From: Gammaproteobacteria bacterium
Lineage (GTDB): Bacteria; Pseudomonadota; Gammaproteobacteria; Pseudomonadales; Azotimanducaceae
DNA: 35,616 bases
Reading direction: 5' to 3'
Assembly: GCA_028824555.1 (NCBI GenBank)
Contig: JAPPDJ010000010.1
Location: forward strand, 1 to 35,616
This document shows positions 4,790 to 7,326 of the stretch, in pieces. Position numbers and translations under genes: made by a program. The notes under the pieces are model-generated. The model saw only the letters and a list, made by a program, of their open reading frames with translations. It was not told the origin of the DNA and did no database searches. Position 1 is the first letter of the stretch. The number at the start of each line of letters is the position of its first letter.

Positions 4790-5866
4790 ATGGCGACGGA
4801 TGACGACTTTGCGAGGCGCGTGCTGGCGTGGTGGGACCGGCACGGGCGCAAGGACTTGCCCTGGCAACACCCACGCACGCCGTATCGGGTTTGGGTGTCC
4901 GAGGTGATGCTGCAGCAGACCCGTGCGGGCACCGTGGTGGCCTATTTCGAGCGCTTCATGGCCGCCTTCCCGACCGTTCACGATCTTGCGAATGCCGACC
5001 TCGACCATGTGCTGCACCTTTGGAGCGGCCTTGGCTACTACGCCCGCGCCCGCAATCTGCACGAGGCTGCTCGTCGGCTGGCCGAGCGGCCGGCGACCGA
5101 TCCATTCCCCCGCGACGTGGCTGGATGGATGGAGCTCCCCGGTATTGGCCGCTCCACCGCCGGTGCAGTCGTCGCGCAGGCGTTTGGCGAGCGCGCCAGC
5201 ATCCTCGATGCGAACGTCCGCCGGGTGCTTGCGCGCCATCACAAAGTCGCTGGTGCATCGTCGTCCTCGCACGCGCAAAGGACACTCTGGTGCTGGGCGG
5301 AACAACACACGCCGGTGCAACGTGTCGCGGACTACACCCAGGCCATCATGGACCTCGGCGCCACTGTGTGCCGCAGCACCAAGCCCATGTGCGATGCCTG
5401 TCCGGTGCAAGACACTTGCGCCGCCCATGCCACCGGCGAAGAGGCGCAGTTTCCGCACCGCTCCCCTCGCAAAAGCGCACGGCGGCTTGAACGGCGCCGG
5501 TTCTTCGTCATCACGGCTGGGGACCTCGTGCTGCTCGAGAAAAGGCCGGCGAATGGCGTCTGGGGCGGCCTGTGGTCGCCGCCTGAACGGCGCGAAGACG
5601 AACCGCTTGACGAATGCCTGCCGCGTCTCGGCGTCGAACTCGCAACCGTTGCCGAAACCACCCACGCCGCACCCTTCCGCCACGGCTTCAGCCATTACGA
5701 CCTCGACGTGCTGCCGGTGTATGTTCACTTGACGAGGTTGCCGGCCGAAGTGCGCGACGGCGTTTCCCTGCGCTGGGCAAGGCGAGACGACGCGCTTGGC
5801 CTGTCCGCCGTAGCCGTCAAGCTGATCACACCACCGCAGAGGAGCCTGTTGGAGACGAACCCATGA
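4790..5866 (+). CDS. mutY: A/G-specific adenine DNA glycosylase
   Basis: A 358-aa MutY, which removes adenine mispaired with 8-oxoguanine. The endonuclease III-like domain carries Glu38 in SEVMLQQT, a helix-hairpin-helix ([12 protein letters not shown]) and Asp140 in [11 protein letters not shown], the expected catalytic pair. The [4Fe-4S] cluster ligands are Cys194, Cys201, Cys204 and Cys210 (C-x6-C-x2-C-x5-C). The C-terminal part (from about residue 230) is the NUDIX-like 8-oxoG-recognition domain, with [14 protein letters not shown] and WGGLWSPPE. Its TGA overlaps the ATG of yggX (ATGA), so the two are probably translationally coupled, as in many gammaproteobacteria. The iron-sulfur cluster gives the pairing with the iron-trafficking protein a plausible rationale. 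Confidence 0.96.
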
Positions 5867-6222
5867 GCCGCTCAGTCCATTGCCGCAAATACGGTCGAGA
5901 ACTGCCGGGCCTCGCCGCCCCGCCGATGCCGGGCAAGGCCGGACAGGACATCTTCGAGCACGTCTCAGCCCAGGCTTGGAGTGAATGGCAGGCGCTGCAA
6001 ACGATGCTCATCAACGAGCATCACCTGTCGCTTATGGACCCCGAGGCGAGGAAATTCCTGAGCGAACAGATGGGCAAGTTCCTCGCCGGCGAGGACTACG
6101 AGAAACCCGCCGGCTACGTTCCGCCGGAGCCCTCAGCCGGTGGGGAGCCTTCAGCCAATGAGGAGCCTTCAGCCGGTGAGGAGCCCTCAGCCGGTGAGGA
6201 GCCTTCAGCCGGCAAAGAGTAG
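5863..6222 (+). CDS. yggX: Fe(2+)-trafficking protein YggX with a repeat-encoded C-terminal tail
   Basis: The first about 88 residues are a normal Ygg[18 protein letters not shown] at the N-terminus with its single conserved Cys, then [15 protein letters not shown] and a C-terminal [18 protein letters not shown]. The family protects iron-sulfur proteins from oxidation and supports cytoplasmic iron supply. Normal YggX proteins end near residue 90. This one continues with five six-residue units of the type EPSAGE, made by an 18-bp tandem repeat, to reach 119 aa. The tail is acidic and probably disordered. It starts by ATGA overlap with mutY. The last 109 bp overlap yqgF on the other strand, and the same repeat encodes that protein's tail. 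Confidence 0.93.
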
Positions 6223-6605
6223 CCGCCTGAGCCCAGCCAGGTCTCGCCGATGATGCGGGCGGCCGCGGCGTGGCTGGCTTCCTTGGTGGCGCCTTCTGTC
6301 TCAGCTTCGAACGTGGACAGGCGCTCGTCGGCGTATTCGACGGGGATGGCGTAGTGGGCGGCTAGGCGGCGGCCGAATCGACGCGCGGCGGCAGACATGT
6401 CGCTCTCGGTGCCGTCCATGTTGAGGGGTAGCCCCACGACGGCACGTTCAGGGCGCCACTCCGAGAAGACTCGATCCAAGGCGTCCCATTGTGGCTGGCC
6501 GTCGTTGGCGCGGATTCGCGTGAGTCCGTTGGCGGTGCCGACGCGAGGTTCGACGGTGGCGATGCCAATGTGCTTGAGGCCGAAGTCGAAGGCTAGGACG
6601 GTCAT
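6114..6605 (-). CDS. ruvX: Putative pre-16S rRNA nuclease YqgF/RuvX with a repeat-encoded tail
   Basis: A YqgF/RuvX RNase H-fold protein thought to process the 5' end of 16S rRNA. The acidic active-site motif opens the protein ([12 protein letters not shown]), followed by [25 protein letters not shown] and a C-terminal helix ending [10 protein letters not shown] near residue 130. The remaining about 30 residues are PAEGSS-type repeats encoded antisense to the YggX tail, giving 163 aa against the usual 135–150. ATG 6605 begins the family's normal N-terminus; the open frame further upstream is REPIN sequence and was not used. It follows algH in the same direction, the Pseudomonas order, but a 172-bp gap filled by a repeat element separates them. 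Confidence 0.93.
6127..6219. repeat. 18-bp tandem repeat (five units) coding on both strands
   Basis: Five units begin at 6127, 6145, 6163, 6181 and 6199, with the consensus GAGCCTTCAGCCGGTGAG; a sixth unit is cut after GAG by the yggX stop. Differences between units are few (CCT/CCC and one AAT for GGT). On the plus strand the units read E-P-S-A-G-E in YggX; on the minus strand, in a frame that avoids the antisense TGA, they read P-A-E-G-S-S in YqgF. Because the unit is 18 bp, gain or loss of a unit keeps both frames open. Confidence 0.92.
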
Positions 6606-6621
6606 GGCAGCAGAACGGACC

Positions 6622-6737
6622 CTTGGAGGGAAGGCATCCTGCCCTCCCTGTGCGCCATGGGGCGCGTCCTTCCATGTATCCGCGCCGAGGCAAGCGCGCT
6701 GACGCGCGCAGGGAAGGCAGGATGCCTTCCCTCCAAG
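6622..6737. repeat. REPIN-like element, family A, between algH and yqgF
   Basis: A roughly 116-bp element. Its ends are two palindromic sequences in inverted orientation: 6625–6649 (GGAGGGAAGGCATCCTG...) and 6710–6734 (AGGGAAGGCAGGATGCC...). Between them is a GC-rich linker with GCGCC/GGCGCG and GAGGCAAGCGCGC. A second copy with homologous ends and linker, in opposite orientation, is at 16504–16615, and a half copy is at 34938–34962. The linker homology shows that the whole element is the repeated unit, not just the ends. Confidence 0.8.
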
Positions 6738-6777
6738 GGCCCCGCCCTCGTTCGCCTCCCCGTAGGGAAAGGGCGAC

Positions 6778-7326
6778 TCATGCAAGGCCGGTGGCGTTGG
6801 AGAGGAGGCGGAGGTCCACGCCGATGGCGGCGGCGGCGTCGTTCAGGCGGGAGTCGAAGGCTACGTCGAAGATCAGGTCCTTTGAGCTCGGGCCCGTGAG
6901 CCAGACGTTTTCCGAGAGTTCCTGTTCGAGTTGACCGGCACCCCAGCCGGCGAAGCCGAGGGCCACAAGGTATCTGCCGGGGCCTTCGCCGGCGCCGATG
7001 GCGGCGAGGACGTCGCGGTCATAGGAGAGCAGCAGGCCGTCGCCGGCCGGTTCGCTGCTGTCGTATTCCTTGTCGCTGGTGTGCAGGACGAAGCCTCGCC
7101 GTGGCTCTACCGGGCCCCCTTCCACGGCCACCCGGTCCGGCGCGCCTTCCGTGGGCATGTCGAGTTGCCCCAAGAGCTCTGTGAGCGTGAGGTCCAGCGG
7201 CCGGTTCACCACGAGGCCAAAAGCGCCGTTTTCGTCGTGGCGGCAAAGATAGGTGAGGGTGTCGCCGAAGTAGCTGCCGCGCAGGTCGGGCATGCTGATG
7301 AGGAACTGGTGCTGCCGGGACATCAT
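6778..7326 (-). CDS. algH: YqgE/AlgH family protein (UPF0301)
   Basis: A 182-aa AlgH/YqgE protein; the family is widespread in proteobacteria and its biochemical role is unsettled, although AlgH has been linked to alginate regulation in Pseudomonas. Signatures are HQFLISMPDLRGSYFGDTL at the N-terminus, GAFGLVVNRPLDL, GGPVEPRRGFVLH and, near the C-terminus, ALGFAGWGAGQLEQELSENV. The ATG at 7326 overlaps the tonB TGA as ATGA, which decides it over the adjacent ATG at 7323. It is the third gene of a tightly overlapping gshB–tonB–algH set, an order conserved in Pseudomonas; the next gene, yqgF, is separated by a repeat element. Confidence 0.93.
   Translation of the reverse strand: MMSRQHQFLISMPDLRGSYFGDTLTYLCRHDENGAFGLVVNRPLDLTLTELLGQLDMPTEGAPDRVAVEGGPVEPRRGFVLHTSDKEYDSSEPAGDGLLLSYDRDVLAAIGAGEGPGRYLVALGFAGWGAGQLEQELSENVWLTGPSSKDLIFDVAFDSRLNDAAAAIGVDLRLLSNATGLA

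Follow-up and report, generated by a model that had tools for sequence, protein, structure and literature searches.

A tandem 18-bp repeat shared by the ends of the convergent genes yggX and yqgF, and its probable place in a dispersed family of in-frame repeats

The convergent genes yggX and yqgF (ruvX) of the gammaproteobacterial genome considered here both end in a tandem array of an 18-bp unit, which is read in frame on both strands and gives each of the two predicted proteins a repetitive tail. From the sequence comparisons described below we consider it likely that this array is the local member of a dispersed family of in-frame repeats resembling the Rickettsia palindromic elements (RPE), recognized by the 11-bp core GAGCCNTCAGC, and that at this place it serves two convergent genes. 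If this is true, a short repeat can alter many proteins, including the tail of a ribosomal protein and a tRNA synthetase, without breaking them, and can couple the lengths of two unrelated proteins. The family would then be a clear system for studying the spread of in-frame repeats, the reasons for their tolerance and any action of the tails.

The window, i.e. the whole stretch of 35,616 nucleotides that was analysed, belongs to genome G000; G006, G007, G009, G012, G013, G014 and so on denote others of the 16 genomes of the genus.

The repeat array at the yggX/yqgF junction

The features of the junction are listed in Table 1. yggX lies on the plus and yqgF on the minus strand, and according to the coordinates the third codon positions of the two frames coincide in the overlap. 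The array was placed by Tandem Repeats Finder at the top of 17 rows for the window, with 88% matches and a score of 139; shifted by 18 bp against itself it agrees at 61 of 69 positions, and the other 87-mers tested in the window reached at most 40 of 69. It writes (EPSAGE)n on the predicted YggX and (PAEGSS)n on the predicted YqgF. As the Iron_traffic domain of YggX ends at residue 88 of 119 and the RuvX domain of YqgF at residue 124 of 163 (Pfam), both before the array, the 18-bp repeat codes for added tails.

Table 1. Features of the convergent junction (window coordinates)
Feature	Position	Strand	Remarks
yggX	5863..6222	+	predicted 119 aa; residues 1-88 Iron_traffic domain; residues 85-119 overlap yqgF
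yqgF/ruvX	6114..6605 (6605-6114)	-	predicted 163 aa; residues 1-124 RuvX domain; residues 129-163 overlap yggX
Tail-to-tail overlap of yggX and yqgF	6114..6222	both	109 bp
Tandem array	6126..6212		18-bp unit GGAGCCTTCAGCCGGTGA, 4.8 copies
Five GAGCCNTCAGC cores in the array	starts 6127, 6145, 6163, 6181, 6199
YggX tail	6127..6219	+	31 residues
YqgF tail	6117..6221	-	35 residues
yqgF stop codon	6114..6116 (6116-6114)	-	within conserved Gly-Tyr codons of yggX
yggX stop codon TAG	6220..6222	+	just after last partial unit

A preliminary description of this DNA had held that the tail-to-tail overlap is written by the 18-bp repeat and that the tails follow complete family domains, and on both points the coordinates, Tandem Repeats Finder and Pfam agree with it. 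Its statement that the overlap is essentially five copies applies to the repeat itself and not to the number, since 4.8 copies were counted and the array takes up most, not all, of the overlap. Both tails had also been called extra, which corresponds to the lengths found in the genus: YggX measures 88–102 aa in 12 other genomes and YqgF 126–144 aa in 13, the remainder being unmeasured or without a full match. The observation named there as a refutation, relatives carrying the same tails without the repeat, was not made: the array-free relatives measured have no such tails.

A terminator in the overlap was considered and rejected, as a search of 5800-6900 gave no terminator-like sites. The plus strand of the overlap folds better than most of its shuffles (z = -2.85; 2 of the 200 did equally well). 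Upstream of yqgF, at 6617-6742 of the window, lies a palindromic repeat of about 125 bp whose family is separate from the 18-bp repeat; it occurs at dozens of places in the genome and on both strands, and nearly all of the 81 matches to a 1.6-kb query fall on it.

In G014, a close relative, YggX has 113 aa, YqgF 157 aa and the overlap 91 bp, compared with 119 aa, 163 aa and 109 bp in G000; the junction is exactly one 18-bp unit shorter and both frames are open. Between the two genomes the flanks show 3 differences in 267 bases of yggX and 1 in 383 of yqgF (4 of 650 together). Besides the missing unit, the aligned array contains five substitutions, all at shared third positions, a pattern made up of five changes in one alignment; none of them changes a residue of YggX and one replaces E by D in YqgF. 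The suggestion that the copy number alters both tails jointly while the frames are kept is thus borne out by this pair of genomes.

G009 has neither the array nor the tails (YggX 89 aa, YqgF 133 aa). Here about 2.6 kb (L054:434-3028) separates the two genes, containing ORFs for a CBS-domain protein, a DarT-like protein and a DarT1-associated NADAR antitoxin, none of which gave a PADLOC match, and beside yqgF the insert contains a 58-bp stretch with a 74% match to the end part of mutY. For 11 other genomes of the genus, no yqgF was found in the roughly 1.5 kb flanking yggX that were covered, a stretch cut shorter in one case by the end of a contig.

In both G000 and G014, yqgF terminates at the CTA within CCGGCTACGTT, which forms the conserved end of yggX with its Gly-Tyr codons. 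In G009 yqgF terminates at this word too, which there lies in the flank of yqgF itself. With a CG extension (one free base), this word was found only at the yggX ends of the clade and in that flank of G009 among the 923 kb of partly overlapping loci searched. Because the yqgF of G009 ends on the same word, this stop codon has probably been retained, with the repeat put in between; the G009 junction also suggests that yggX and yqgF were already touching before the array arrived. Alternatively to such an ancestral overlap, the word beside the yqgF of G009 could be a microhomology join left by recombination, given that the same insert also contains the mutY-like stretch. The idea of a single private expansion erasing both stop codons, put forward in the preliminary description, is not supported, as the unit recurs at other loci as part of a dispersed family and the yqgF stop was probably kept.

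Under the explanation that we favour, yggX and yqgF would have been closely apposed before a copy of the dispersed repeat entered their junction or was amplified there, and the number of units would then have been set by slippage or unequal exchange. Each 18-bp unit would add or remove six residues in both predicted proteins simultaneously, because the unit has 18 bp and is free of stops in the EPSAxx frame and, on the opposite strand, in the xxAEGS frame. Most likely the tails are unstructured, tolerated extensions instead of a selected switch, which is our judgement and not a result.

Abundance, forms and frames of the dispersed core

The core GAGCCNTCAGC occurs at 100 sites in G000, about sevenfold above the 14 sites of a reversed-pattern control. 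Likewise, 83 sites against 15 for the control were counted in G014, 57 against 15 in G009 and 141 against 15 in G006, and the core is raised less in G013 (28 against 9) and G012 (16 against 6), with no clear enrichment in nine of the 16 genomes of the genus (e.g. G008, 14 against 29). The most core-rich of the 16 is G007, with 244 sites and 21 for the control.

At zero mismatches, a pattern of two successive units matched within the genus at a second G000 gene (C25), twice more in G014 and several times in the single-contig G013. The third base of the serine codon TCN was left free in this pattern; nevertheless 19 of the 22 zero-mismatch matches use TCA in both units, and the other three, all from G013, have TCG at least once. 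Exact two-unit 18-bp arrays were present in 57 of 390 genomes of the order, representing 36 of 142 genera, with 0 for the reversed control among the matches listed. A draw of 398 genomes of the phylum gave seven with a match, namely three of the order (the window's own included) and four elsewhere in the class, and none outside the class; in the viral collection two contigs match. As far as titles and the beginnings of abstracts go, the matches listed from the open-licence literature contain no description of a GAGCCNTCAGC repeat family. For the exact repeat letters, no title on a bacterial repeat family was among the matches listed, and both peptide strings had 0 occurrences in these.

Tandem cores of G000 mostly have periods of 18, 27, 45, 87 or 96 bp, and some cores stand alone. 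For the analysis of forms 82 of the 100 sites were examined, 8 (C25, C181) were treated apart and ten were left out (C42, C88:35058, C114, C125:1413, C145, C147, C151 and three at C167). Of the 82 cores, 46 belong to a 45-bp palindromic form (up to 12 mismatches). Where neighbouring cores are at most 150 bp apart, 35 of 38 spacings are multiples of three, six of the 38 coming from the arrays of the window and of C25. The 45-bp consensus folds with -25.3 kcal/mol and an 8-bp stem, moderately better than its shuffles (z = -1.74, 9 of 200 as good); two 18-bp units of the window gave 0 and -1.2 kcal/mol and thus have no hairpin of their own. The proposed kinship of the 18-bp units to the palindromic form rests on the shared 11-bp core. 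By eye, the 96-bp arrays at L265 and L276 (G000:C3 and C85) consist of a GAGCCTTCAGC head and several hairpin-like modules, as if the repeat family were modular.

Frames were compared at 33 arrays, each from a different genome outside the genus. EPSAxx is the longest frame in 14 of them, xxAEGS on the opposite strand in 12 and another one in 7 (26 of 33 for either of the two), in a count that itself disfavours frames with a stop in the unit, that includes the same gene of two genomes twice (L217/L218 and L224/L227) and that contains some arrays near contig ends. EPSAxx and xxAEGS are the two frames used together at yggX/yqgF. In 17 of the 31 clusters of the 45-bp form the EPSA frame exceeds all others in length, long open frames being weak evidence in this GC-rich genome. 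Some arrays, in G013 and G016, have frame-breaking spacings and look non-coding.

Competing explanations and comparison with known repeats

There are other ways in which such an array could come about. Replication slippage of a chance GAGCC-type word at the junction, unrelated to all other loci, would agree with the first units differing between G000 and G014, as slippage and mutation would produce, and with the yqgF end beside the array, which itself reads TGAGCCCAGCC. The same core with the same 18-bp period is found at another G000 gene (C25), however, the cores of G000 exceed the reversed pattern about sevenfold, and two-unit arrays recur across the order (57 of its 390 genomes), the control giving zero among the matches listed. 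A purely local origin was therefore set aside as unlikely, the core being dispersed through the genome. Even less probable seems a convergence of proteins, in which disordered, acidic, EPSA-rich linkers were selected and the likeness of the DNA followed from codon choice. The arrays are indeed often in frame and located at protein ends or between domains, but TCA stands in both units in 19 of 22 matches despite the free third base, 12 of the 33 arrays are read as AEGS from the opposite strand and there are arrays that look non-coding, none of which is expected from selection on one peptide. We give hardly any weight to misjoined repeat copies at the junction: the genomes are drafts, G014 and G009 assembled from metagenomes, but G000 and G014 share the junction with 4 of 650 flank differences and a different number of units (a common study origin being possible), and both frames are open to the same two stops.

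The local member of a dispersed in-frame family thus remains our preferred reading. It is conceivable, although we would not count on it, that this is a selfish repeat coding on two strands, the unit of which evolved so that its third positions coincide and each strand gives a stop-free, hydrophilic and tolerable peptide, EPSAxx on one and xxAEGS on the other. Such a repeat could settle in genes of either direction and, at a convergent junction, in both genes.

Coding variable-number tandem repeats have units in a multiple of three, the number of which varies between relatives. The junction resembles them in that its unit number is 4.8 in G000 and one fewer in G014 with the frames kept, and differs in that a single array determines how long two predicted proteins are and that its unit recurs elsewhere as part of a dispersed family.

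RPE are characterized (PMC2229807, PMC3767692) as small dispersed palindromes of 100-150 bp which lie in frame inside protein genes and do not break them. They and the Wolbachia palindromic elements are similar to the GAGCCNTCAGC family, which is small, dispersed, in frame in genes and has an apparently palindromic 45-bp form; it has many dispersed copies, in frame within genes, and both occupied and empty sites in relatives (see below). It differs from them by its units of 18-96 bp, often in tandem, by the gammaproteobacterial host and by coding frames on both strands. Because the unit lengths of 18, 27, 45, 87 and 96 bp lie outside the range of RPE and the 18-bp units tested have no hairpin, the family was not filed as RPE.

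PARCEL are described (PMC2996958) as tandem, dyad-symmetric coding repeats thought to be moved within and between genomes, with amphipathic units of 25 residues in ORFs without assigned function; compared with this description, the unit considered here is short, hydrophilic and also present in housekeeping genes. REP elements, tagged by GTAG/CGTC, are similarly outlined as small, high-copy palindromic repeats (PMC3733652). They are extragenic by name, whereas many GAGCCNTCAGC copies lie inside genes.

Copies inside genes and their differences between relatives

Pfam domains were found in 16 of 19 ORFs carrying the repeat in the EPSA frame, three being without a match; since these ORFs were picked by us in that frame, the Pfam matches are no test of frame preference. 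The 45-bp form stands in frame in, for example, purD, rlmN and the gene of a class I tRNA synthetase. Among ten of these ORFs, the domains flank or span the element in six, namely PurD, RlmN, a solute-binding protein, a protein with DinB_2 and FGE-sulfatase domains, a class I tRNA synthetase and a 2-oxoacid acyltransferase. Judged by position and Pfam, the repeat forms end tails in ribosomal protein S17, a 5'-nucleotidase, a SpoIIE-type phosphatase and an LptD_N-domain protein.

Sixteen sites were queried in the relatives, and 12 could be aligned to G014, G009 or both, L265, L269, L275 and L292 being left out. Seven of the 12 are unlike G014 or G009 in whether the element is present or in how many units it has. 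The second site of the FGE/DinB protein shows this cleanly, 45 bp being absent in G014 and present in G009. PurD has two copies in G000 and three in G014, and they are absent in G009; the acyltransferase site is shorter by 42 bp in G014 as well as in G009. At L287 the difference is 42 bp, not 45, and L283, compared with G014 only, lies in diverged surroundings. For the remaining five of the 12, every relative compared has homologous sequence, with the core altered in some; L266 and L277 were counted as occupied although the core is altered in one relative. An unsystematic look at the 12 aligned sites gave no evident target-site duplications. The C-terminal tail of ribosomal protein S17 (L279, G000:C101:4100-6000) is made of 27-bp repeats (EPSAAPEKE), and its length differs in G014 and G009, in G014 by more than whole units.
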